Source: a virus | DNA length: 34,565 nt | Virus record (IMG/VR): IMGVR_UViG_3300031839_000891 | Span: 1-34,565 of that record | Strand: one strand, 5' to 3' | Notes under the pieces: model-generated | Databases searched by the model: none | Seen by the model: the letters and a program-made list of their open reading frames with translations, nothing else | What the model was told of the DNA's origin: nothing | Shown: piece by piece, positions 18,481 to 33,870 of the stretch | How the letters are laid out: each line of letters begins with the position of its first letter | Position numbering within the stretch: the first letter of the stretch is position 1 | Made by a program: the position numbers and the translations under genes

Positions 18481-19989
18481 TTACTTCATTAACATAAAGT
18501 TGTTTGCACCTTGTGTGATCAAACATCTTTCTGATAACATATGTAATTGCATTGCATCAAGTGCTGATGTAGCGGCTCCAACAGAACCAGTAACCCAAGT
18601 TTTTAATCTTCGATCATCAGTTGCAGAAGCTCTATATCTAACGTGTAAGAACGGTCGCTTCATGTTTTTACCCATGTTTTGATCGTATACAGTAGATACA
18701 CCAGCTGGAATCATAACACCTCTGATAGCACTAGCTCCAGCAGCATCATTAATACCACCTCTTGTAGCTCTATCATTTAAGTATCTGAAGTCAGATTTGT
18801 AAAAGTCGTAAGAACCTCTTCTAAATCCTGAGAAACCTAAATTTAAAGCCATATCTTCGTCGTTGTCAAATACTCCGTAAGAAGTACCTCCAGCTCCGTA
18901 AGAATTCATTGAAGCAAGCATATCGTCTATCGCTAAGCTAGTTGATCTGTTAACAAACATCATGTATTCTTCAATAGCACCTTGCTTGTCAAACTCAGCT
19001 AAAATAGCATCGAACTCAGCTAAATCAGTAGCAGCATTAACACCAGTTACACCTGAAGTTAAGTTACCTCTTGATTCAATAGCAGCAAATAAACCTTCAG
19101 TACCAGTTGCAGCGCCATCCTCTTGATGAACAGCTAAATCAGCATCATTAGTGCCAGAAGCTCTAACACCTTCAATCATTGACATTTCTAAGTAATCAGT
19201 AAATCTAGCTCTTGTATCAGCTTCAGCTTTTAAATACCAAAGATAACCTGATTGTCCTTGCTCAGATGAAACTTCTACCCAACCAATTCTAGATGCATCA
19301 GATCCTGATACTTCGTAGTAATCTTTTAAGATAATTGGCTTGTTAGTGAAAGTTGTAAACTTAGGTTCGTTAGCGCCTCTTGATTCAGTAGAAGCAGCTT
19401 GAGAACCACCAGCATCAGCTAGTGCTCCTGGATAAGATACTCCTTTTTTAAACTCAGAACCATAAACTAAAACAGTACAGTTGTCAGTACCGTTAGCTAT
19501 AACAGCATCGTTATTGTCGTAAGGTATAACTTCAATGTCAGGTGAAGACGCAGTAGCGACTTCAGTTACAACACCTTTAAATGTTTGACCAGTTCCACCA
19601 GCAACAATAACAGTATCGTTCAAACGAATACCGTGATTAAAACCTGGATCTTGACCATCCATATCAGTTAATACTTCTATCTTGCAACCTAAGTTACCAT
19701 TGATACCAGCATCATTGTCTAACATAGAACACTTATAAGATAAGTGTAATCTACCTTGCTCAGACCAAACAACTTGATCAGAGGTCATAGATTCTTCTGC
19801 ACCAACTTTAGCTAAAAAACCTGAAATAGTTCTCGGTCCGAAAACTTCAGCTTCTTTTTCCATTAAGTCAGGCAGGTATTGTTGTCTCCAGTCATTAGTG
19901 GAGCCCGTAAAATCTAGATAATTTGTATTTAGCGCTTGCTTTTGTGGAGCAGGTACACTATTCAAACTACCTCCTGCAGTAATTGCCAT
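18481..19989 (-). CDS. Major capsid protein
   Basis: This 502-aa protein shows the mixed alpha/beta, Gly/Ala/Asp-rich composition of HK97-fold capsid proteins. The N-terminal arm is polar (LNTNYLDFTGSTNDWRQQ), followed by a helix-rich LMEKEAEVFGPRTISGFLAK. Inserted beta-rich segments lie at about 90-190. The C-terminal domain contains PFLHVRYRASATDDRRLK and ends SERCLITQGANNFMLMK. I associate that ending with capsid proteins of crAss-like and related phages. It follows the scaffold-like gene by 19 nt, and a strong terminator follows it, fitting very high expression. It has no obvious prohead-protease cleavage site. Position after terminase, portal and scaffold makes the call firm. Confidence 0.85.
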   Translation of the reverse strand: MAITAGGSLNSVPAPQKQALNTNYLDFTGSTNDWRQQYLPDLMEKEAEVFGPRTISGFLAKVGAEESMTSDQVVWSEQGRLHLSYKCSMLDNDAGINGNLGCKIEVLTDMDGQDPGFNHGIRLNDTVIVAGGTGQTFKGVVTEVATASSPDIEVIPYDNNDAVIANGTDNCTVLVYGSEFKKGVSYPGALADAGGSQAASTESRGANEPKFTTFTNKPIILKDYYEVSGSDASRIGWVEVSSEQGQSGYLWYLKAEADTRARFTDYLEMSMIEGVRASGTNDADLAVHQEDGAATGTEGLFAAIESRGNLTSGVTGVNAATDLAEFDAILAEFDKQGAIEEYMMFVNRSTSLAIDDMLASMNSYGAGGTSYGVFDNDEDMALNLGFSGFRRGSYDFYKSDFRYLNDRATRGGINDAAGASAIRGVMIPAGVSTVYDQNMGKNMKRPFLHVRYRASATDDRRLKTWVTGSVGAATSALDAMQLHMLSERCLITQGANNFMLMK

Positions 19990-21207: not shown

Positions 21208-23589
21208 TTACAGGTCTAAACCTGCATCTCCTGTAACTATATCATTACCTGATGATTCAAACTTTTTAAGTGAATCACCCTCACTTCTTTGTGTAATCAT
21301 TTCTTTTTGATGACCAGCTTGTCTATCAACTCTAGCATCTTTTCTATCTTCTCTTAAAGCTTCCATTTTATCTGCAGCTTCTTTTTTCATACCTTCTAGT
21401 CTGGTATTTAGTTGAAACTCGTATTGCATTAAATCTTTTTTAACACTAGCTTCTTCTCGTAAATATTGTATTTTAAGTTGATTTCTAGTTTGTTCTAGTT
21501 GAGCATCAGCCTGAGCGTTAGCTTGTTTCTTTTGCATTTCAGCTTGAGCTGCTGCTTGTTGTGTTTGAGCGTTTGCTTGTGCTTGTGCTTGTATATTTTG
21601 TTGTTGAATTTGTTGATCTCTTCTTTGCTTTTGTTTCCTTTTAATCTTCAACATTTGATTAGCTAGTTTTATATTTCTTATATTACGTAAATCTATAGCA
21701 TCATCTAAATCTATAGAGCCTTGTTGTAAAGAAACCTGTATATTATTTTCTAGCATTTGTTTTTCTTCATCATCTGGCATTAACTCTATAAATATACCAA
21801 AATCATAAAGATGTAAGTTTTTCATTTCTTCTAACGTAGCTACGTTGTGTGCACCTAATGCCCTTATAAAAGCATCGCGCGTTGGTGAGTACTCTATTAT
21901 ATCTGCTATACGTAGTGATAGACACTCTGCAACCTCAGCCGTAATAAACATCATTGATTGTAATATATGTCTTGTAGCTGTATTAGAATTAGCTGCTGCC
22001 ATTTTTTGTACACCTACTAAAGCATTACGATCTGGAGTACTAGCGTCTCTTGCTTCGTTTAATCCGGTTACATCTCTTATCATTTGTAAATAGTAGTTGT
22101 AAGTTGTAATTAAACTTTGTAATTTACCACTGTTAACACCGTTGTTTATTTGTTGTATTGGTACTTTACCAGGGTTACCATCACCATCAGATGTAAAACT
22201 TCTACCTATAACACTACCAGTTTGGAAGAACATGTTAAGTGCTTCTTGTGGATTATAATTTGTTCCATTACCAAGATCAACTTCTGCTAAACCATCAGCA
22301 TCTAAATAAACACCATCAGGCACCATACGTGCCATAACTTGTTGTAGCTTTAAATGTGTTAATTGAATCATATCAGCAAAACTAGTTATTCTACTAACAA
22401 TAGATTCTATTCTACCTTCATACATTCTTGGAGCAACAATTTGGTAATTCATTTTAACTCTACTAAAATCAGAGTCAGTTCTCATCATATTGTCACACAT
22501 CTTCCATCTAAGTATCTTATCTGCACCTATAATGTAAACACCTTCATATAAAGTTTCAACAACTCTTTCAAGTTTAGAAAACTTAGCTTCCATATCTGCG
22601 GGTGGATTAAATTGATCATCTTTTTCAATAATCTTTTCGGCACCACTAGCAAGTTCTTTTAATTTATAAACATTATTCATATGAGTTTTATAATTAAAAT
22701 ATAAAACTTGAACTTTATTTTTATCTCTACTTGTAACGTAATCTAATGGGTAAGCGTATTTATTTGCTAATTCTTTTATTTCCTCTTCAGATAACTCTGG
22801 AAACTCTTTTACTAATTCGTTAATAGGTAGTTCTTTTACTTCACCAATATAATATACATCTTCAAAATAAGGTGATTCAGTATGTGAGTAAACTAAATTA
22901 GCTGGATCAACGTATTCTGCTTGAGCTCCAGTGCTAAAATCAAACGTGGTCTTAGTAGCTCCAATACCTAGTACTGTTAAATCGTATAGACATCTTCTTC
23001 TAATTAAATCATAATCACTACCTTCTAGTAAAACGTTTAGCGCTTGTTCTTCTGCTAGCTCTACAGCTTGTTTATAATCAAGTTGCATGTGAAGCGTTAG
23101 TTCTTCTTCAGTATCAGGAAGTTCTTCAGGATTATTTTCGTAAAGATCAATACCAAATTTTTGCTTAACTAAATCTGTGTATGTTCTAGATCTCATGTCA
23201 CGAAGTATAGACTCCATGTAGTCTGTTCTTTTCTTAACTCCAAACTCATCTTGTGAAAAACAATTTATTTCAAAGTTTCTTTGAGCCATACCATTAACAA
23301 CAATATCTACAAACTTAGGAATAATAGGTACAGGTTTCCAATCAAGATTTAAATAAGATAAATCACCATTTATAGATAATTCATTTTTATATTTTTGAAT
23401 AGGTTGTTCTCCTCTAGCATATAATCTTAACGTATGAAAATTATTTTTATGACTGTTATATTTAGATGTACTTCCTGAAAACCATTCGTGGCGTATAGCT
23501 CTAGCTACTTTTAAACCGTAATCTTCATTTAGTTTTTCTAAATCGCTAACTGCTTGCGAAGGAAAATTTATAGAGTGTTCTGATCTCAT
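21208..23589 (-). CDS. Portal protein
   Basis: This 793-aa protein starts with helix-rich sequence, has a central portal-like body, and ends with a Gln/Ala-rich coiled coil (about 655-740) and a charged tail. Diagnostic stretches include WKPVPIIPKFVDIVVNGMAQ near residue 82 and DVTGLNEARDASTPDRNA near residue 510, then VGVQKMAAANSNTATRHI. The NEARDASTP block is typical of portals in crAss-like and related phages, from memory. Its ATG overlaps the end of the terminase gene by 4 nt, indicating translational coupling. As a dodecameric ring it would occupy one capsid vertex, carry the packaging motor and later the tail. The length is large for a portal but normal in that group. Confidence 0.85.
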   Translation of the reverse strand: MRSEHSINFPSQAVSDLEKLNEDYGLKVARAIRHEWFSGSTSKYNSHKNNFHTLRLYARGEQPIQKYKNELSINGDLSYLNLDWKPVPIIPKFVDIVVNGMAQRNFEINCFSQDEFGVKKRTDYMESILRDMRSRTYTDLVKQKFGIDLYENNPEELPDTEEELTLHMQLDYKQAVELAEEQALNVLLEGSDYDLIRRRCLYDLTVLGIGATKTTFDFSTGAQAEYVDPANLVYSHTESPYFEDVYYIGEVKELPINELVKEFPELSEEEIKELANKYAYPLDYVTSRDKNKVQVLYFNYKTHMNNVYKLKELASGAEKIIEKDDQFNPPADMEAKFSKLERVVETLYEGVYIIGADKILRWKMCDNMMRTDSDFSRVKMNYQIVAPRMYEGRIESIVSRITSFADMIQLTHLKLQQVMARMVPDGVYLDADGLAEVDLGNGTNYNPQEALNMFFQTGSVIGRSFTSDGDGNPGKVPIQQINNGVNSGKLQSLITTYNYYLQMIRDVTGLNEARDASTPDRNALVGVQKMAAANSNTATRHILQSMMFITAEVAECLSLRIADIIEYSPTRDAFIRALGAHNVATLEEMKNLHLYDFGIFIELMPDDEEKQMLENNIQVSLQQGSIDLDDAIDLRNIRNIKLANQMLKIKRKQKQRRDQQIQQQNIQAQAQANAQTQQAAAQAEMQKKQANAQADAQLEQTRNQLKIQYLREEASVKKDLMQYEFQLNTRLEGMKKEAADKMEALREDRKDARVDRQAGHQKEMITQRSEGDSLKKFESSGNDIVTGDAGLDL
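21209..21226 (-). terminator. Weak stem-loop at the end of the portal gene
   Basis: A 7-bp stem with one G-U pair and a 4-nt loop (TGCAGGT-TTAG-ACCTGTA on the minus strand) includes the portal stop codon. It is followed by ATCTTTATTTTT. It could act as a partial terminator or attenuator before the scaffold and capsid genes; the U-tract is imperfect. Confidence 0.35.
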
Positions 23590-25823
23590 ATTTTATTTTT
23601 AATTATCGTAGATGAAAATCCTTTATTATTATATTTTGATATATGTAAATTTAATGGTTCTTTTTTTTGTTTAGGGTTTGGTCTATATAAATGTCTATTG
23701 CAAGCCATGATTGCTAGTCCAGAACTTATTGATGCATCGTGTTTAGTTCTTCTATTTATATTGAATTTAGACCAATCATTAAGTGTACTATTAAAATACA
23801 TTGTTCCATAAGTGTTGTCTTGTAGTAAACCAACGTGATCGTTTATGTACATTTCTATAGCAGCAGCGTGAGCTTGTTTTATATCTTCACTAGAGTTTGG
23901 TATCCCACCTACTTCTTTTTCTGCAACTGATAATTTATTCCATATTTTATCAGGCCTATTCATACTAAAACCTCTATAACCTCTTCTACGTAAATAGTAC
24001 AATAACCTTGGTTTATTATTCTCTGCTAATAGTGGCATGCCGTAGAATACTAGCGCCATTAAAACATCTTCAAAAAATATCTCAGCTGTTTGTGGTCTTG
24101 CTATATATTCAAGGAAAAAAGTATTTGCTGGTGCATCTTCCATAGAAAACTTTGTTAAACCGTGCAAAGCACCTTTTGATCCTCTTCTATCCACTGTTCC
24201 AGATATATCATATGAGTCACAACCAAATGCACCCATGTGCTCGTTACCTGGATAACGTACGCCATTTTTAATTATAACGTTATTTTGCAATTTTTGTCCT
24301 GGAACCCAACTAATATTAAACCTACCATTAGGATCTGGATTAAAAGTAACTAGTGTATCTTTTTTACCGCCAACCCACTGAAAGTTACCAGCTGTAGTTA
24401 CAGATGAGTTTCTATTACCTTCATTATAATCTATCTGCTCGTATATTTTTATAAGGTTAAATAAACTATTTTTTGTTTCATCTCTAAACGCATGCTCTTC
24501 TGTTCTAGGAAACTGACGATAAAATTCATTTAAAGCATCTTGGTCATCTTTTAATCCATGTGCTTCATTTTCCCAATGATCAATTACTCCTTGATCTATC
24601 TCTACTCCATGTGGATCAAATGCTTGTTGTTTAGGATTAGTGAACACAGGTCGTCCGAATTCATCAATGAATCCCTCGTAATTCCATTCCATAGGAATAA
24701 ACAAAGAATATAATCCCGACTTAGTCTGTCCATTTCTATTTCGTCTGGTAACATCTGAATCATTATATAGATTTTTAAAATTATCACCTCCTTTATCTAA
24801 GGCATTGGATGTGCTTCCCATCATACACTTACCAACTATTCTACTACCTAAACGTAAACAAGTTTTTGTAACTCTCCAGTTGTTTTTTATGTTATCAGGT
24901 CTTTCCCACTTACCACTTTCATCATGAACTAGTAGGTTTAACTTTTCACCATCATAGCTATTATCACCTGTATTTTTCCAGTCTATAGTTGTATCAAGAC
25001 CCTGCATGTCATCAATCTCCTCTCGCTCCCTCATCTTTTTACGAGTAAACTTTTTAGCTGGTACTCTATAAGCTAGTTCAGATTTAGGTCGATCCATACC
25101 ATCTTGTATTGGTTTGAAAAAGAAAGGATAGTTTAAACTTATTGGCACAACTTTATCAGTAAACATTTTCTTTGCATCGGCACCCGTTTTAGACAATATA
25201 CCAAATCTACTATCACTTGCTAGAGTTGCCATGTTAACAGTTTCAGAAGAACTCATAAAAGAAAAACCAGAACGTCTATTTTTTAAATAACACATTCCGT
25301 AACTTCTTTTATCTGCTTTACACGCTTCCCAAAATATATAGAATAATCTATTTGCTTCTCTAAAGTCTGGTGCTCCAACGTCTATTTTACTCCATTGTAA
25401 ATACATATAGTGCGTACCAGTCATATAAGTTGGTTCACCTTTGTTCATAAACCAAAACCCTTCTTCTCTTCTTTTAAACTCTTCGTCTATATATCCATAA
25501 TGCTTTTCTTTAAAATCATCTGGATAAACTTGCCAGTCAAATACTGTTTTAATTTTTTTAAAATCAGGATTAGGTGAAAACTGTTTCCACTTTTGTTCTT
25601 GTTTAATTTTGCTACAAGAATAAATTTCTTTAGGTTGTTTAGGTAAAGCTATTTGTAAACCTTGTATTTCGATAACATCACCTATCATACCGGTTTTAGA
25701 TATTACAACAACATCATTTTCTTTGTTATAACCATACTCCCACTTTTTAGATTTATTTAATCTTTTTATTGTAGTTAGTTTTACTGGCTCAACTATTTTA
25801 TATAGTGTTTGCTCGTAACTCAT
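23586..25823 (-). CDS. terL: Terminase large subunit
   Basis: This 745-aa protein has the two domains of a phage packaging motor. ATPase: a deviant Walker A, KNRRSGFS (181-188); a Walker B, LNLLVHDE (295-302, D301/E302); and a coupling motif, MMGSTSN (334-340). Nuclease, RNase H-like: D536 in GCDSYD, a likely acid at E601 in LLAENN, and D696 in KHDASISSG. An N-terminal extension of about 150 residues precedes the ATPase core. It cuts concatemeric DNA and drives it through the portal. It is linked on both sides by 4-nt overlaps, with the upstream 90-aa gene and with the portal gene, as is usual for terminase modules. The call is very secure. Confidence 0.95.
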   Translation of the reverse strand: MSYEQTLYKIVEPVKLTTIKRLNKSKKWEYGYNKENDVVVISKTGMIGDVIEIQGLQIALPKQPKEIYSCSKIKQEQKWKQFSPNPDFKKIKTVFDWQVYPDDFKEKHYGYIDEEFKRREEGFWFMNKGEPTYMTGTHYMYLQWSKIDVGAPDFREANRLFYIFWEACKADKRSYGMCYLKNRRSGFSFMSSSETVNMATLASDSRFGILSKTGADAKKMFTDKVVPISLNYPFFFKPIQDGMDRPKSELAYRVPAKKFTRKKMREREEIDDMQGLDTTIDWKNTGDNSYDGEKLNLLVHDESGKWERPDNIKNNWRVTKTCLRLGSRIVGKCMMGSTSNALDKGGDNFKNLYNDSDVTRRNRNGQTKSGLYSLFIPMEWNYEGFIDEFGRPVFTNPKQQAFDPHGVEIDQGVIDHWENEAHGLKDDQDALNEFYRQFPRTEEHAFRDETKNSLFNLIKIYEQIDYNEGNRNSSVTTAGNFQWVGGKKDTLVTFNPDPNGRFNISWVPGQKLQNNVIIKNGVRYPGNEHMGAFGCDSYDISGTVDRRGSKGALHGLTKFSMEDAPANTFFLEYIARPQTAEIFFEDVLMALVFYGMPLLAENNKPRLLYYLRRRGYRGFSMNRPDKIWNKLSVAEKEVGGIPNSSEDIKQAHAAAIEMYINDHVGLLQDNTYGTMYFNSTLNDWSKFNINRRTKHDASISSGLAIMACNRHLYRPNPKQKKEPLNLHISKYNNKGFSSTIIKNKI

Positions 25824-26092
25824 TTTGATCTACCTTCTGCGAATCCTTTAAACTTATTTTCTTTTGCTTCTACAGTCTTGCCATCTAACATAGCTTCTTC
25901 CTCGTGAATCCTGTTTAGTATTTCAAACGCATCGAATATAGCTAACTTTTTTGTAGCTGCCGCGTTCTTTAATCTATCTGCTGATATATCTTCGTCTGAA
26001 TCAACTATTTCTTCTCTAGCAACTTTAATAAGTTCTTCAACCGCTTTGTGCCCAGCTTGGATTATATTCTTCTTCGTTTCCTTGATATTCAT
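25820..26092 (-). CDS. Candidate terminase small subunit (90 aa)
   Basis: This is a small, entirely helical, charged protein. It has amphipathic segments VEELIKVAREEIVDSDEDIS and LKNAAATKKLAIFDAFEILN, then a charged tail. Its 3' end overlaps the terminase large subunit start by 4 nt, the classical place for the small subunit. The only in-frame ATG that keeps the helical core lies at 26092, which overlaps the previous gene by 56 nt, so a later non-ATG start is possible. Small terminase subunits diverge beyond recognition, so the assignment rests on position and helical composition. Confidence 0.55.
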   Translation of the reverse strand: MNIKETKKNIIQAGHKAVEELIKVAREEIVDSDEDISADRLKNAAATKKLAIFDAFEILNRIHEEEAMLDGKTVEAKENKFKGFAEGRSK

Positions 26093-26624
26093 ATTTAATT
26101 GTAATAAATTTATTTAAAACTCTATATAATCTTTTACCTTCAATAATAAATTCATATTCACTATTTGGTGTAAAACCAACTAAAGTATTTAAATTATAAG
26201 CACCATCTGTATACTTTATAATACCAGTTAATGGTTGCTCATTATCGTTAGTTAGATTATTTGTAGATTTTATAGGTTGTACAAAACTATATCCAGGTGT
26301 AGCGATCCAATCTTTTCTTTTATATAAATACAGTTGATCTTGTGATATTATATATTTATCTTCTTTCCAATAAGATCTACTATTCTTCTCTCTACCTTTA
26401 ACATCGTGCCATCTTCTAAAAATATTATGATGCACTATTACTTCATCACCCACGTTAATAGGTGATTGAAATAATAATGGAGTAGCGATAACTTTTGCTA
26501 ATCTATTTACATATTGATGATTAAAAACCTCAGTGTTTAATATTAAATTTTTATCACCAACTTTTGTAGAATTATTATATCTTTCACCTATTGGAGATAC
26601 AATAAAATCTTTATAAGCTTTCAT
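26037..26624 (-). CDS. Conserved protein with possible GroES-like barrel (195 aa)
   Basis: This protein has a beta-rich core. Residues 40-70 read VIATPLLFQSPINVGDEVIVHHNIFRR when joined across two segments (VIATPLLF, then INVGDEVIVHHNIFRR). A charged region with EKNSRSYWKEDKYI follows, then YLYKRKDW and a C-terminal EYEFIIEGKRLYRVLNKFI. The order 'regulated strand, VGDxVIxHxN, ... late strand pair' resembles co-chaperonin barrels such as GroES and T4 gp31. I judge this possible but unproven. The start overlaps the stop of the previous gene as TAATG, and its end overlaps the next gene by 56 nt. It precedes the terminase genes. Otherwise no function is recognised. Confidence 0.6.
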   Translation of the reverse strand: MKAYKDFIVSPIGERYNNSTKVGDKNLILNTEVFNHQYVNRLAKVIATPLLFQSPINVGDEVIVHHNIFRRWHDVKGREKNSRSYWKEDKYIISQDQLYLYKRKDWIATPGYSFVQPIKSTNNLTNDNEQPLTGIIKYTDGAYNLNTLVGFTPNSEYEFIIEGKRLYRVLNKFITIKYEYQGNEEEYNPSWAQSG

Positions 26625-29391: not shown

Positions 29392-29649
29392 TTATTCTAC
29401 TATAACTATATCTCTAGCGCGTATAACTTTATACATAGTATTATTGTAAGCAATATCATGTCCAGCTATCGCATCATAATATATAATATCACCCTTGTTA
29501 ACAACAGGAACATCGTTGCCTGTAGAAATAACGTTAGCTTTTTTGTATCTATTCGTTTCATCTGTTTCATCTGTTAAGATTAAACCACCAACTTTCTTTG
29601 GACCTTCTTTTATTATGTCAATTATTACGTAATCGTTAACTGCTTGCAT
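29392..29649 (-). CDS. groES: Phage co-chaperonin GroES
   Basis: This 85-aa Cpn10-family protein starts with MQAVNDYVIIDII, like the GroES N-terminus. A mobile loop has KKVGGLILTDE (18-28), with G21-G22-L23-I24-L25 in place of the E. coli GGIVL that inserts into GroEL. The barrel core is KANVISTGNDVPVVNKGDII (37-56), and the final strands are KVIRARDIVIVE. Between the GN and the GD turns, E. coli GroES has about ten more residues that form the roof hairpin; here they are absent. It starts 14 nt inside the end of groEL, so the pair is translationally coupled. It would cap the phage GroEL ring to enclose folding substrates. Confidence 0.87.
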   Translation of the reverse strand: MQAVNDYVIIDIIKEGPKKVGGLILTDETDETNRYKKANVISTGNDVPVVNKGDIIYYDAIAGHDIAYNNTMYKVIRARDIVIVE

Positions 29650-31201
29650 TTTCTATTCTTATATTTGATATTACACAATCCGCTGACATAATAGTTAAAG
29701 CTACACTTACAGCGTTTTTAAGTGCAGACTTAGTTACAAGTACAGGATCGATAATACCTTCATCTATCATTTTAACAAAGTTACCTGTTATTACATTACA
29801 ACCATAACCTTCCTTCATGTTAACATTAAGCTTCATACCAGAGTTATCCATAATAGTTTCAAATGGTGAAGATAAAGCATTTAACAATACCTTACCAGCA
29901 TCGCTGGTTGAAATTTTTTGAGAAGCATTTAATAGTGCTATACCACCACCTGGTACTATACCTTCTTGTAGTGCAGCCTTAGTAGCATATATAGCATCTT
30001 CAACACGATCTTTCTTTTCTTTTAATTCAACCTTTGAATTAGCTCCTACCATAATTATACCTACACTACCAGATAATGTAGCTAATCTATCTTCTAGTTT
30101 CTTTTTAATAAAACCATCTTTTTCTTTAGCTAACTTAGCATTTAACTCATCTATTCTATTTTCAATATCATCGGTCATGCCATCTAGTGTTAGAACTGTA
30201 TGTTTACTATCTGTTACTGAGAACTCAGCTTCACCTAAGTGTTCTGGCTTCATAAGATCCAAATCATCACCTAGCTCTTCGTTAATTACTGTAGCACCTG
30301 TTAATATAGCTAGATCTTCTGTAGCATCCTTTTTAGTAGGACCAAAGCCTGGTAAATCAATAATGTTTACTTTAATATTACCTTTTACTTTGTTCATCAT
30401 TAAAGCGGCCTTAACTGATTGAGCTACTGGCGCTATAATAAGTAAAGCTCTATTGTTCTTTATAACGTATTCTAATATTCCTTGTATTTTTCTTACATTA
30501 GGTATTTCAGATGAACATATTAATACAAGTGGAGTATCTAATTCACATGTTTGTTTATCTGTGTTTGTAACAAAGTGTGTAGATGTAAGGCCACAATCTA
30601 CTTGTACTCCATCTACTATCTCAACATATGTATCATCTGTTTCACTTGTTTCCATTAGTACTACACCGTTTTTACCAACCTTATCATAAGCTTCAGCTAT
30701 AATAGCTCCTAGTTCTTTATCATTGTTACATGATATAGCACTAACAGATTTAAGCATATCACCTTCTACATCTATAGATATGTTATTAAGATATTCAATA
30801 ACATCATCTAGTGTTTGGTTTACTCCATCTTTTATTTCTCTGATTGTAAGACCATCTGCGACTGCAGTGTCTATTTGTTGAATTAGCGCTTCAGCTAAGA
30901 CTGTAGCGGTTGTTGTACCATCACCAGCATCTTTAACTGTATTTCTAGCGGCTTCTTTTATTAGGGTTGCACCCATATTTTCTACCGGATCTAACAAGAC
31001 TACGCTCTCTGCAACGGTTACTCCATCTTTTGTTATGACCGGTTTGCCACGACCGTCTTCGTAGATAACGCATTTACCTGACGCTCCTAATGTAGATTTA
31101 ACGGCTTGGGCTAATTTATTTACGCCGGTGATTACCTTAGCTTTAGCATCATCACCAAAGCTAAGATCTTTCACCAACTCACTTGGTAAGTTGTATTCCA
31201 T
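29636..31201 (-). CDS. groEL: Phage chaperonin GroEL
   Basis: This 521-aa Cpn60-type chaperonin is close to the 540-550 of bacteria. ATP-binding and hydrolysis residues are present: KDG with D59 (E. coli D52), GDGTTTATVL with D94 (E. coli D87), and VEDAIYATKAAL with D402 (E. coli D398), followed by PGGGIALL. The equatorial N-terminus LSFGDDAKAKVITGVNKLA matches GroEL. The apical groove motif, normally GYLSPYF, reads GLTSTHF (204-210), so client-contact residues differ. The C-terminal GGM tail is missing; it ends IRIENASS. It should form a folding ring with the overlapping groES. Position upstream of terminase-capsid genes and clear divergence argue against host contamination. Confidence 0.95.
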   Translation of the reverse strand: MEYNLPSELVKDLSFGDDAKAKVITGVNKLAQAVKSTLGASGKCVIYEDGRGKPVITKDGVTVAESVVLLDPVENMGATLIKEAARNTVKDAGDGTTTATVLAEALIQQIDTAVADGLTIREIKDGVNQTLDDVIEYLNNISIDVEGDMLKSVSAISCNNDKELGAIIAEAYDKVGKNGVVLMETSETDDTYVEIVDGVQVDCGLTSTHFVTNTDKQTCELDTPLVLICSSEIPNVRKIQGILEYVIKNNRALLIIAPVAQSVKAALMMNKVKGNIKVNIIDLPGFGPTKKDATEDLAILTGATVINEELGDDLDLMKPEHLGEAEFSVTDSKHTVLTLDGMTDDIENRIDELNAKLAKEKDGFIKKKLEDRLATLSGSVGIIMVGANSKVELKEKKDRVEDAIYATKAALQEGIVPGGGIALLNASQKISTSDAGKVLLNALSSPFETIMDNSGMKLNVNMKEGYGCNVITGNFVKMIDEGIIDPVLVTKSALKNAVSVALTIMSADCVISNIRIENASS

Positions 31202-31254: not shown

Positions 31255-32349
31255 TTATTTATTTGCTTTTCTTTTTGCTCTTCTAATTTTTCTTTCAGCT
31301 AACTTTGTTTTTATAGCAGATCCAATTCCAGTGCCACCTCTTTTTCTTGTTTTAATTTTAGCTGGTTCGTTTTTTCTATCTTTAATCTTTAACTTAGTTA
31401 CTGTATCGTTAGTTTTAGTAGTTACTTTCTTTTTCTTTCTATTACCTTCAACATCGAACTTTTGTTTAGTTTTTTTAGAAACATCTCCTGATTCAGTTCT
31501 TTCTACAACTTTAGTTTTTCTAATATTATCTTTAGTTCCTTTAACAACTTTAGTTTGTTTAGAACCTAGACCTGGAGTTGCAACTTTAGTTTTAGTAGTT
31601 CTCTTTGTATCTTTACTTACTTTTGGTCCAGCAGTTTTTGTAGTCGTTGTTTGACCATGTCTTTTACTAACGCCATAAGCTTTGTTTATTTTATTTTGTA
31701 AAGCATTGTATTCAGGAGAACCTTTTTTATGCTTCTTTCTTTCAGCAACATACTTAGATAAATTAGGATCTCTCTTTTTAGCTTCAGCAAATTTATCAAC
31801 TTTAGGTTTAGGTTTAGGTGTAGGTGTAGTTTTAACAACTTTACCAGTATTTGGACCTGAGGTAACAACAGATACATTTTTGTTAACTTTTATATTTTTA
31901 TTATCTTGCTTTTTATTTTGAACAGCTGGTTTATCTTTTTTACTAGATGCTGTTGCGCCTGCCGCTAAGGCAGTAACTCCTATGCTAGGACCATATTTTT
32001 TTATTAACTCAGTGGCCTTTTGTTTTCCCTTATCTAATAGTGATGTGACCGGCTTGATAATTTTTTGTTGTACCTTTTTATTTTTAGCTAATTCTTTAGC
32101 TCCTTTTTTAACAGCTTTCTTTGCAACAGGTAATAAGGGTACTGCCTTCATTGGAGATTTTTCAGCCATATCCATAGCGGAGCCCTTCTTCATCTTCATA
32201 GGATTTTTAGCCATGTCCATTGCAGAGTTTTTGGCCATTTTCATAGCTGCTTCTCTTTGCATTTTCATTGCAGCTTCTGCTTTCATTTTCTGTGGAGACT
32301 TATATTGTGTTCCTTTACCGAACTCCATCCCCTTCATTTTAAATGCCAT
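31255..32349 (-). CDS. Met/Lys-rich basic protein with repeated N-terminal motifs
   Basis: This is a 364-aa, strongly basic protein. Residues 1-70 are a Met/Lys/Ala repeat region with KSPQKMK, AAMKM, two copies of SAMDMA, NPMKMK and KSPMK. A helix-rich block (75-115) is followed by a short hydrophobic patch YGPSIGVTALAAGATASS. The rest is Lys/Thr-rich and probably disordered, with one ordered-looking block, KKGSPEYNALQNKINKAYG, near residue 205. That block is familiar to me from marine phages. No known catalytic domain is seen. The charge suggests nucleic-acid binding or packaging inside the capsid. It shares the start MAFK with the gene upstream. Role unproven. Confidence 0.6.
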   Translation of the reverse strand: MAFKMKGMEFGKGTQYKSPQKMKAEAAMKMQREAAMKMAKNSAMDMAKNPMKMKKGSAMDMAEKSPMKAVPLLPVAKKAVKKGAKELAKNKKVQQKIIKPVTSLLDKGKQKATELIKKYGPSIGVTALAAGATASSKKDKPAVQNKKQDNKNIKVNKNVSVVTSGPNTGKVVKTTPTPKPKPKVDKFAEAKKRDPNLSKYVAERKKHKKGSPEYNALQNKINKAYGVSKRHGQTTTTKTAGPKVSKDTKRTTKTKVATPGLGSKQTKVVKGTKDNIRKTKVVERTESGDVSKKTKQKFDVEGNRKKKKVTTKTNDTVTKLKIKDRKNEPAKIKTRKRGGTGIGSAIKTKLAERKIRRAKRKANK

Positions 32350-32373: not shown

Positions 32374-32730
32374 TTATTCTTTTTCAGCTTGCATAGCCTC
32401 TTGTTCCCATGGGTGGGCTGGATGTCCTTCAGGTAATCTACCCATTGGACCATCAATCATCCCGTTTTTTCTAATGTAAATTTTATCCTCCCACATAACC
32501 CAGTTGTCTCCATATGCCGCTCTGCCCTCATCCATCTGTTCCATGTGTTTTTGTTCGTGCTTAATGACGCGTTTCATTAACTTACTTCCAGGTTTTACAC
32601 TAGGACTGACAGCAATAGTGCCATCGTTTCTAGCTTCCGCTATTGTTCCTTTATCTAATGGCGTTCTAACCAGGTTAACATTACCCGAATGTTTGAAATT
32701 TCTTTTTTCTTTGCCTAGTTTAAACGCCAT
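32374..32730 (-). CDS. Small HExxH metallopeptidase-like protein
   Basis: This 118-aa protein carries a zinc-peptidase motif, IKHEQKHMEQM, with H58, E59 and H62. A candidate third ligand is E109 in HPWEQEA (105-111). The helix-motif spacing and the late WEQEA are typical of minimal gluzincin-type domains. The N-terminus MAFKLGKEKRNFK is basic and resembles that of the next gene. No signal peptide or membrane helix is seen, so it would act in the cytoplasm or be packaged. Possible roles are maturation of virion proteins or degradation of host targets. The peptidase motif is seen; activity is inference. Confidence 0.65.
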   Translation of the reverse strand: MAFKLGKEKRNFKHSGNVNLVRTPLDKGTIAEARNDGTIAVSPSVKPGSKLMKRVIKHEQKHMEQMDEGRAAYGDNWVMWEDKIYIRKNGMIDGPMGRLPEGHPAHPWEQEAMQAEKE

Positions 32731-33055: not shown

Positions 33056-33072
33056 ATAAGGATTTTCCTTAT
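33056..33072. other. Perfect 7-bp hairpin between small genes
   Basis: ATAAGGA-TTT-TCCTTAT forms a perfect stem in the 40-bp gap after the second paralog's stop. There is no following U-tract in the leftward direction, so it is not a normal terminator; it may be an RNA processing or stabilising element. Confidence 0.4.
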
Positions 33073-33464
33073 TATGCTTTAGTAAAAAATGCGTACTCTA
33101 CTTGTACTGTACCTGAAGTTGTTTGTAATTGAACTCCTTTACTTCCACCGGCTTTGCTGTAAGGTAAAAACATAAATTCACCTGCTGATAATCTAGCAAA
33201 AGCAACGTTATCAGTATCTTCTACGTCTACAGCGTTAGTTGTTGCTGTAGATCCATCTGTTGTTCCAGTATGTTTTATATACATGTATGCTGTTGCTGTA
33301 CCCGCTGGTTTTATTACAGTGTCACCCCCTGTTGTTCCTGCATTTACTTTAGATATACCTTTGCTTGGATTACCAGTTGTTAAAGTATCTGTTACTGAAA
33401 ATGACAATGCATCTGATGATACATCTGTACTTGATAATGATAATGTTGGTTTTAATGTTGCCAT
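33072..33464 (-). CDS. Tandem-paralog small virion-like protein, copy 2 (130 aa)
   Basis: This beta-rich, Ser/Thr-rich 130-aa protein starts MATLKPTLSLSSTDVSSDAL and ends TVQVEYAFFTKA. The same framework (start, LSFSVTDT, YMYIKH, EFMFLPY, QVEYA) is found in the upstream neighbour. The middle sequence and nearly all synonymous codons differ, so the duplication is old. There is no signal peptide, and the form suggests a small beta-sandwich. Position at the head of the leftward operon and likely high expression fit a capsid decoration or spike protein. That role is inference. Confidence 0.65.
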   Translation of the reverse strand: MATLKPTLSLSSTDVSSDALSFSVTDTLTTGNPSKGISKVNAGTTGGDTVIKPAGTATAYMYIKHTGTTDGSTATTNAVDVEDTDNVAFARLSAGEFMFLPYSKAGGSKGVQLQTTSGTVQVEYAFFTKA

Positions 33465-33477
33465 AGTTATTTATAAT

Positions 33478-33870
33478 TTATGATCTAGTAAAGTAAGCGT
33501 ATTCAACTTGTACTGTATTAGCTGTAGCTTCTAGTTGTATTAAACCGGCTCCACCAGCGTGATGTGGAAAAAATGCAAACTCATCTTTAGATATACGCAT
33601 TATTTCTGTACCATCAGCTGTTTCTACTTTAACTTGATCAGCACCAGATGATCCACCAGCTGAGTTTAATCCAAGGTGTTTTATATAAACATATCTTGTA
33701 GCATCTACACTTGGAAGTATAATACTTGCGCCACCAGTAGTGGTTGCTGTTATTCTAGCTACATTTTCTATTGGTGCATTTACAGTGGCAGTATCAGTAA
33801 CTGAAAAAGATAAAGCATCAGAAGAAACATCTGTGCTAGATAAAGATAGTGTTGATTTAAGTGACGCCAT
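33478..33870 (-). CDS. Tandem-paralog small virion-like protein, copy 1 (130 aa)
   Basis: This is the first gene of the leftward block, at 130 aa. The N-terminus MASLKSTLSLSSTDVSSDAL and C-terminus TVQVEYAYFTRS match the downstream copy. The core carries RYVYIKHLG and EIMRISKDEFAFFPHH, with two adjacent His residues missing from the paralog. It is all-beta in appearance, with Ser/Thr/Ala enrichment. It starts after a leader containing a small hairpin. The two copies are equal in length, which favours two interacting subunits or alternative decoration proteins over decay of one copy. Function is inferred. Confidence 0.65.
   Translation of the reverse strand: MASLKSTLSLSSTDVSSDALSFSVTDTATVNAPIENVARITATTTGGASIILPSVDATRYVYIKHLGLNSAGGSSGADQVKVETADGTEIMRISKDEFAFFPHHAGGAGLIQLEATANTVQVEYAYFTRS

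Follow-up and report, generated by a model that had tools for sequence, protein, structure and literature searches.

A putative three-gene chaperonin set with a predicted tandem co-chaperonin in a marine virus of bacteria

The stretch of DNA analyzed here (the window) is the linear IMG/VR virus record IMGVR_UViG_3300031839_000891, 34,565 bases in length, and all positions are given on that record, which probably represents roughly half of a genome (related records are as long as 60-79 kb). It belongs to a marine virus of bacteria and carries a groEL gene, an overlapping groES gene and, as a second co-chaperonin gene absent from a first-pass annotation of the window, a gene whose 195-amino acid (aa) product matches phrog_13932, 'co-chaperonin GroES' (expectation value (E) 1.7e-15), at about twice the length of GroES (Table 1). 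Structure prediction indicates, with moderate confidence, that this product (the tandem protein) consists of two Cpn10 domains arranged head to tail. We give about an even chance to the reading that the three genes form a phage-owned chaperonin set, in which a GroEL ring would be closed by lids made from the groES and tandem products and would fold phage structural proteins.

The AlphaFold2 model of the whole tandem protein had a predicted local distance difference test (pLDDT) score of 78.8 and a predicted template modeling score (pTM) of 0.73, with the lowest confidence at residues 31-40. Its top PDB match was 7ekq_R (E 4.7e-4, template modeling (TM) scores 0.54/0.54, 202 columns), a chain named 'Cpn20 co-chaperonin subunit' in a Chlamydomonas ClpP complex; 7ekq_Q ranked second (E 1.6e-2, 211 columns), and ranks 3-14 were all single GroES or Cpn10 chains. 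VIA-align gave Z of 9.1 to 7ekq_Q over residues 1-178, and 8.4-6.1 to GroES chains and gp31 over residues 102-181. Because the match list of the whole model mostly tests the second half of the protein, residues 1-104 were predicted alone (pLDDT 78.5, pTM 0.65); with Foldseek, ranks 1-24 were then all GroES or Cpn10 and rank 25 was 7ekq_R, at a modest best E of 3.5e-3 and a VIA-align Z of at most 7.0. Domain 1 has a low-confidence, presumably flexible loop beside a conserved hydrophobic L-I-x-N motif, and the loop of domain 2, in both sequence and model, is about 10 residues long and without a hydrophobic triplet. The protein may serve as a lid-type co-chaperonin with a Cpn60. BFVD holds more viral models of similar size, including a 'Chaperonin cpn10' of phi18:3 (200 aa, TM 0.64-0.66), so the tandem protein is already in databases under a single-domain name.

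At the sequence level, the second half exceeded the Pfam Cpn10 cut-off of 21.1 bits in three of 10 tandem homologues (phi46:3, 33.3 bits; phi38:1, 28.2 bits; Calle_2, 28.0 bits); two of the other seven gave weaker Cpn10 matches and five gave none. The single-domain GroES family phrog_3188 matched the second half of the phi46:3 (3.6e-8) and phi38:1 (7.5e-7) proteins, with a weak match to the Elemovirus protein in its first half (3e-4), a total of three of the five tandem proteins given. When the phrog_13932 profile was run over 14 records, the tandem protein was matched in 13 (all except Gundel), and profile positions ~103-199 also matched the genome's own single groES in eight of the 14 (best E 2.7e-9), one of these eight matches reading through three stops; the same profile gave matches in 9/14 control bacterial and archaeal genomes. 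Alignments of the halves to groES with hhalign were insignificant in first tests; with a deeper set, domain 2 aligned to bacterial GroES with a probability of 82 (E 1e-5), and domain 1 to phage groES and bacterial GroES with probabilities of 54 and 10, respectively. Halves of 143 tandem proteins were also searched, using shuffled halves as control. At thresholds of E≤0.01 and E≤1, respectively, domain 1 against the phage groES profile yielded four and 54 matches (shuffled: 0 and 13), and domain 2 against the combined profile yielded six and 28 (shuffled: 0 and 0). Since these searches are weak for domain 1, its assignment is founded mainly on structure.

Linkage was examined in loci seeded with groEL (the best 80 of 599 confirmed IMG/VR relatives, from a contig scan that found at least 599) and in loci seeded with the tandem gene. 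In 71 of the 80 groEL-seeded loci, the tandem gene follows downstream on that strand, at a median of 3.05 kb after groES; the remaining nine loci stop 0.9-4.2 kb past groEL, and one of these (L043) has its tandem gene on a separate piece of its contig (L094). Conversely, groES and all or part of groEL were found upstream in 14 of the 16 tandem-seeded loci with at least 6 kb of upstream sequence, six of these being on contigs already seeded by groEL and eight on contigs outside that set; one of the 14 (L173) has only a 58-aa groEL end within its stretch, and the two exceptions are L168 and L172. Seven of 13 tandem-bearing records contain no GroEL; all seven are shorter than 40 kb, with less than 2.7 kb before the tandem gene in six and 4.4 kb in one. 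The tandem gene directly precedes the large terminase gene, or is separated from it by one open reading frame (ORF), in the window and in ctfjg026, Elemovirus, Panino, phi46:3, phi38:1 and Calle_2, and the relatives in the last five phages are annotated as GroES or Cpn10. Gundel (Pachyviridae) has neither tandem gene nor GroEL. As separate observations, tandem-bearing contigs L165-L176 were binned into metagenome-assembled genomes (MAGs) labeled Flavobacteriales and Sphingobacteriales, and also Woesearchaeota, Pacearchaeota and Maricaulis, and are probable mis-binned phage contigs; on a Burkholderiaceae MAG contig, an ORF (L177:9317-10093) that ends in a 69%-identical piece of the tandem second domain looks like an assembly chimera.

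The groEL and groES products were recognized by Pfam as Cpn60_TCP1 (E 4e-54, 184.5 bits against a cut-off of 34.3) and Cpn10 (E 1.5e-10, 41.4 bits against the curated cut-off), respectively. The groES mobile loop, GGLILTD, is hydrophobic and contains glycine; G22 is invariant in 41 aligned rows, and the roof stretch GNDVPVVNKGD aligns to a longer E. coli stretch in a profile alignment. The first-pass annotation had described a complete pair in a phage late region, with groEL first and groES starting 14 nucleotides (nt) inside its end, and this was confirmed: the pair shares the strand of the terminase, portal and virion protein genes, the same order on one strand recurs in 80/80 groEL-seeded loci, and the two genes overlap by exactly 14 nt in 74 loci and by 17 or 29 nt in four, a gap of 416 or 443 nt taking the place of the overlap in two. 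We infer that the overlap may couple translation of the two genes. In all 33 bacterial Bacteroidota loci fetched, groES precedes groEL. Among other phages, groEL comes first in ctfjg026, Elemovirus and Panino (one ORF between the genes in Panino), and groES comes first in immuto, Bacteroides phage SJC03 and Callevirus (one ORF between in Callevirus). No groES was recognized within 2.5 kb of GroEL in Vibrio phages 2.275, phiTY18, phiKT1024, K471 and 1.255, crAss cr108_1 or LR756501, which is weak evidence for its absence there since these profiles also failed to detect the Cpn10 annotated in Calle_1. An abstract by Marine et al. 2017 (ISME J) reportedly linked the gene order of the large and small subunits to GroEL phylogeny, which would make the reversed order already published.

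The reversed, overlapping pair is ordinary and already known for this phage group. The first-pass annotation's overall interpretation holds for the complete pair, its intact ATPase residues and its late-region setting; its description of such a pair as rare does not hold within this group, which has at least 599 confirmed relatives and an annotated instance of the order in Elemovirus. GroEL covering at least 80% of the query was found in 235 of 50,697 phage records, some of which (e.g., Salmonella) look like bacterial DNA. A 2017 paper counted chaperonins in just 7 of 2,429 reference viral genomes and reported GroEL in 36 environmental genomes (group 2) out of a group of 78 related to phi38:1, marine Bacteroidetes viruses (PMC5332604); a structural study of phage EL notes that some phages carry both GroEL and GroES (PMC7185714), and the Panino paper mentions homologues of both (PMC11590407).

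The window GroEL is 40% identical to E. coli GroEL and 38.4-41.6% identical to 33 Bacteroidota GroELs. Residues were counted, with E. coli numbering, in 74 distinct GroELs of more than 500 aa from the window's clade. D52, D87 and D398, the ATPase sites, are kept in 74/74 and align with window residues D59, D94 and D402, the three that had been called intact. Together with the Cpn60_TCP1 domain and a GroES-type partner gene in 80/80 loci, they place the protein among group I chaperonins. The changes L234Q, L259K, V264M, R197C and E386K, at positions of the lid/substrate groove or of salt bridges, occur in 74/74, and the Bacteroidota set shows little or no variation there; among the 19 clade rows of the tree set described below, E386 is kept in two and L259 in two. 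Positions 83 and 327, a salt-bridge pair, hold K/R and D/E in 63/74, the reverse of E. coli D83-K327, which looks like co-evolution; the window itself has K and S. These residues suggest an active ATPase that may have lid and client preferences of its own, and independence of the phage from the host chaperonin, as proposed in the first-pass annotation, is a plausible hypothesis.

The segment around R452-V464 is ~10 residues shorter in the clade, and the V464 column is a gap in 57/74. Arginine is outside the six commonest letters at R452 (these cover 66/74 rows), E461 is kept in 15/74 in an alignment that is gappy there, and at R452, E461, S463 and V464 the window GroEL reads E, K, N and a gap, respectively. 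These four are ring-ring contacts, of the kind altered in the single-ring mutant SR1. In this gappy alignment, the clade GroELs mostly do not carry the E. coli residues of a double ring, and the phage GroEL is perhaps a single ring. The C-terminal GGM repeat is absent from the window GroEL.

An unrooted maximum-likelihood tree of GroEL was built from 68 rows (19 clade, 13 other phage, 33 Bacteroidota and 3 proteobacterial, the clade and phage rows being selected from those fetched); its 200 bootstrap trees had not settled, and long branches meet in it. The 19 clade rows formed one group (support 100/99) in all 200 bootstrap trees, with Elemovirus and Panino as neighbors (98/88), and were split from the Bacteroidota and Proteobacteria GroELs with support 100/98; a quick tree recovered the same clade. 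As an internal control, Vibrio phage GroELs fell beside that of E. coli, and SJC03 and LR756501 fell with Bacteroidota, so the tree is able to show kinship to hosts. The GroEL of ctfjg026 lies on a long branch outside the clade while its terminase is, among reference phages, the closest to that of the window, indicating differing histories, subject to the long-branch warning. Since the viral lineage lies outside the 33 Bacteroidota GroELs, recent host capture is unlikely. Placement inside one bacterial clade and chimeric groEL edges had been named in the first-pass annotation as findings that would count against it; GroEL forms a lineage outside the Bacteroidota and proteobacterial GroELs tested, and the groEL-groES junction recurs in 80 separate contigs (78 with the overlap, two with the gap). 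The explanation that these are recently captured host genes or an assembly chimera is accordingly very improbable, and was rejected on this separate clade, the recurring junction, and the low identity to Bacteroidota GroELs. The groEL G+C content is near that of the window (34.5% versus 33.5%), which is neutral as to origin.

Several known systems share part of this arrangement. Elemovirus (Flavobacterium phage vB_FspP_elemo, NC_055854) has groEL then groES with a 1-nt overlap and encodes a 180-aa 'co-chaperonin GroES' immediately ahead of its large terminase gene, but its pair is on the strand opposite the late genes and its GroEL is 36% identical to that of the window. Podoviridae sp. ctfjg026 (MW202828, Manatee Spring) likewise has overlapping groEL then groES, and a tandem gene one ORF before the terminase gene, with the difference that the tandem product is annotated as hypothetical and the GroEL lies outside the clade. 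Callevirus (Pervagoviridae: Calle, phi38:1, phi40:1) encodes GroEL, a single Cpn10 and a 194-aa tandem protein before the terminase, whereas its order is Cpn10, ORF, GroEL, beside replication genes; phi38:1 GroEL is among the methylated phage proteins, i.e., it is made during infection (PMC13288928). The best structural match is to the chloroplast system of Cpn20 and Cpn10 (Chlamydomonas CPN11/20/23, Arabidopsis), which likewise joins a head-to-tail Cpn10 pair with a single-domain Cpn10, although Cpn20 is a plastid protein and nothing here indicates descent of the two from one tandem ancestor. As in Cpn20-type proteins, two Cpn10 domains on one chain are indicated for the window protein, by structure prediction and by the Pfam and PHROG matches of its homologues; unlike apicomplexan cpn20, which is said to keep mobile loop and roof in both domains (PMC3542282), it has a short domain 2 loop, and it is the product of a phage gene near the terminase rather than a plastid-targeted eukaryotic protein.

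T4 gp31 and RB49 CocO are, like the proposed tandem lid, phage lids of Cpn10 fold, and gp31 (1g31) ranked 22 among the full-model matches, but gp31 is a single domain of 107 residues that works with host GroEL (PMC9598537). The jumbo phages EL, OBP and AR9 also encode GroEL-like rings, those of OBP and AR9 being single; they are reported to work without a co-chaperonin (PMC9598537), so that the co-chaperonin genes in the window argue against membership, and the EL chaperonin is 22-25% identical to GroEL (PMC7185714, PMC9598537) versus 40% for the window GroEL. Tandem Cpn10 is described as confined to plastids; no phage tandem lid is named in the open-licence literature searched, where, by title and abstract, papers on tandem or double GroES/Cpn10 concern plastids, apicoplasts, Rubisco assembly or atypical chaperonins, and none concerns phages. 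As far as could be seen, the combination of a predicted fused lid with a strongly changed GroEL is new.

If the three products act together, the phage GroEL would be an ATP-driven ring, perhaps single, that would take in phage structural proteins soon after their synthesis, the 502-aa virion protein being the likeliest client. The lid would be assembled from Cpn10 domains of two genes, groES supplying one domain and the tandem gene two on one chain, and its seven positions could be filled by seven singles or by mixes such as two tandems plus three singles or three tandems plus one single. Such mixing would resemble that of plastids with Cpn10 and Cpn20, for which there is precedent (PMC5780408, PMC3542282, PMC4242682) and where fused two-domain lids on a seven-fold ring pose a 'symmetry dilemma' (PMC5780408). 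The one mobile loop of the tandem protein would be in domain 1, and domain 2 would mainly be structural filler. A more specific version, which we regard as doubtful, is that marine Bacteroidota phages evolved a mixed one- and two-domain Cpn10 lid independently of chloroplasts, on a dedicated single-ring GroEL with a rebuilt groove, the lid breaking seven-fold symmetry and being tuned to the phage capsid protein.

Several results weigh against a shared three-gene machine. A Pfam search of the window's own tandem sequence returned no match, other single tandem sequences returned only stray families, and the tandem family profile had no match among PDB sequences; hhalign of domain 1 against domain 2 was not significant, also with the deeper set; and the models are of moderate confidence, the structural matches of domain 1 having a root-mean-square deviation of 6-8 Å and TM of 0.35-0.53. 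The tandem gene is ~3 kb from groES and near the terminase gene, so a shared complex would have to be assumed, and phi46:3 (Pachyviridae, NC_021792) has a tandem gene before its terminase gene with no GroEL in 72,961 bases. The tandem gene is therefore not strictly bound to phage GroEL and can serve without one, and for this reason two other explanations stay alive. In one, unlikely in our estimate, groEL and groES are self-contained and the tandem product acts as a lid on host GroEL (or mixed with host GroES), suiting the host cage to the capsid protein in the manner of T4 gp31; phi46:3 fits such a division, and phage lids on host GroEL are established for T4 gp31 and RB49 CocO (PMC9598537), but in the window's clade the tandem gene and groEL/groES travel together (71/80 and 14/16 loci), and a phage with its own GroEL is less in need of the host's.

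In the other, which we consider rather unlikely, the tandem protein is no longer a chaperonin component and forms a packaging or virion-assembly ring, six chains giving twelve domains to match the twelve-fold portal. The location of its gene ahead of the large terminase gene, with at most one ORF between the two, in the window and six reference phages would suit this, as would a second domain without a long mobile loop, and Chlamydomonas ClpP is a known case of a ring other than a chaperonin with a Cpn10/Cpn20 cap, the 7ekq complex having CPN11, CPN20 and CPN23 bound (PMC8889267); the close linkage with groEL/groES in the clade and the flexible-looking loop retained next to L-I-x-N in domain 1 speak against it. 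The remaining alternative, a conventional GroEL 14-mer and GroES 7-mer that folds phage proteins, with the 195-aa protein irrelevant, is improbable: family assignment and ATPase residues make the pair complete, but the ring-ring contact residues are changed, and a second PHROG-recognized co-chaperonin is conserved. The 14-mer plus 7-mer expected in the first-pass annotation is doubtful because the contact segment is shortened and the tandem co-chaperonin is present.

Features of the window are collected in Table 1. Transcription on the minus strand runs through groEL, groES, several ORFs, the tandem gene, the 90-aa ORF, the terminase and portal genes and the virion protein genes; a sigma-70 promoter scan of the region was at chance level (13 found versus 12.3 expected). 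The terminase matched 87 phage records, the closest reference phage being Podoviridae sp. ctfjg026 (62.9%) and the remaining 86 being phages of Flavobacterium, Cellulophaga, Maribacter and Tenacibaculum, which makes it likely that the host belongs to the Bacteroidota.

Table 1. Positions of the chaperonin genes, their parts and the late genes in the window
Feature	Description	Position	Strand
groEL	521-aa group I chaperonin; retains the ATPase Asp residues, lacks a GGM tail, shortened ring-ring contact segment	29636-31201	-
groES	85-aa co-chaperonin of one domain; GGLILTD in the mobile loop, roof stretch short	29392-29649	-
groEL/groES overlap	14 nt	29636-29649	-
groES mobile-loop motif	VGGLILTD, residues 20-27	29569-29592	-
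Tandem co-chaperonin	predicted two-domain Cpn10 fold, 195 aa, phrog_13932	26037-26624	-
Tandem co-chaperonin, domain 1	residues 1-104; L27-I28-x-N30 conserved, model least confident over residues 31-40	26313-26624	-
Tandem co-chaperonin, domain 2	residues 105-195; predicted GroES fold ~102-181, short loop	26037-26312	-
90-aa ORF	separates the tandem gene from the terminase gene; without a match in PHROG; putative small-terminase position	25820-26092	-
Terminase large subunit	phrog_6681; shares 62.9% identity with that of Podoviridae sp. ctfjg026	23586-25823	-
Portal protein	phrog_6547	21208-23589	-
Virion structural protein	502 aa, phrog_13704; candidate client, putatively the major capsid protein	18481-19989	-

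Three further observations concern the genes upstream of groEL, all on the minus strand. Directly before groEL lies a repetitive 364-aa protein rich in lysine and methionine (31255-32349), with no match in Pfam or PHROG. A 118-aa protein with an HEQKH motif (32374-32730) resembles a small metallopeptidase, its sole Pfam match being unrelated and below the cut-off. Two adjacent 130-aa proteins (33072-33464 and 33478-33870) of equal length and with near-identical starts, MA[TS]LK[PS]TLSLSSTDVSSDALSFSVTDT, are a tandem gene duplication and perhaps small virion proteins.

The proposal of a fused lid is testable in cultured relatives, such as Elemovirus (host Flavobacterium sp. BAL314) and phi38:1 and phi46:3 (host Cellulophaga baltica), and phi46:3, with a tandem gene and no GroEL, is a natural test case for a tandem lid acting on host GroEL. 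If true, a second occurrence of fused lids would offer a simple, expressible test case of one GroEL, one Cpn10 and one tandem protein, and would point to more than one origin of fused lids. In addition, a phage would then be seen to possess its own folding chamber, capped differently from that of its host, going beyond the borrowing of GroEL practiced by T4.

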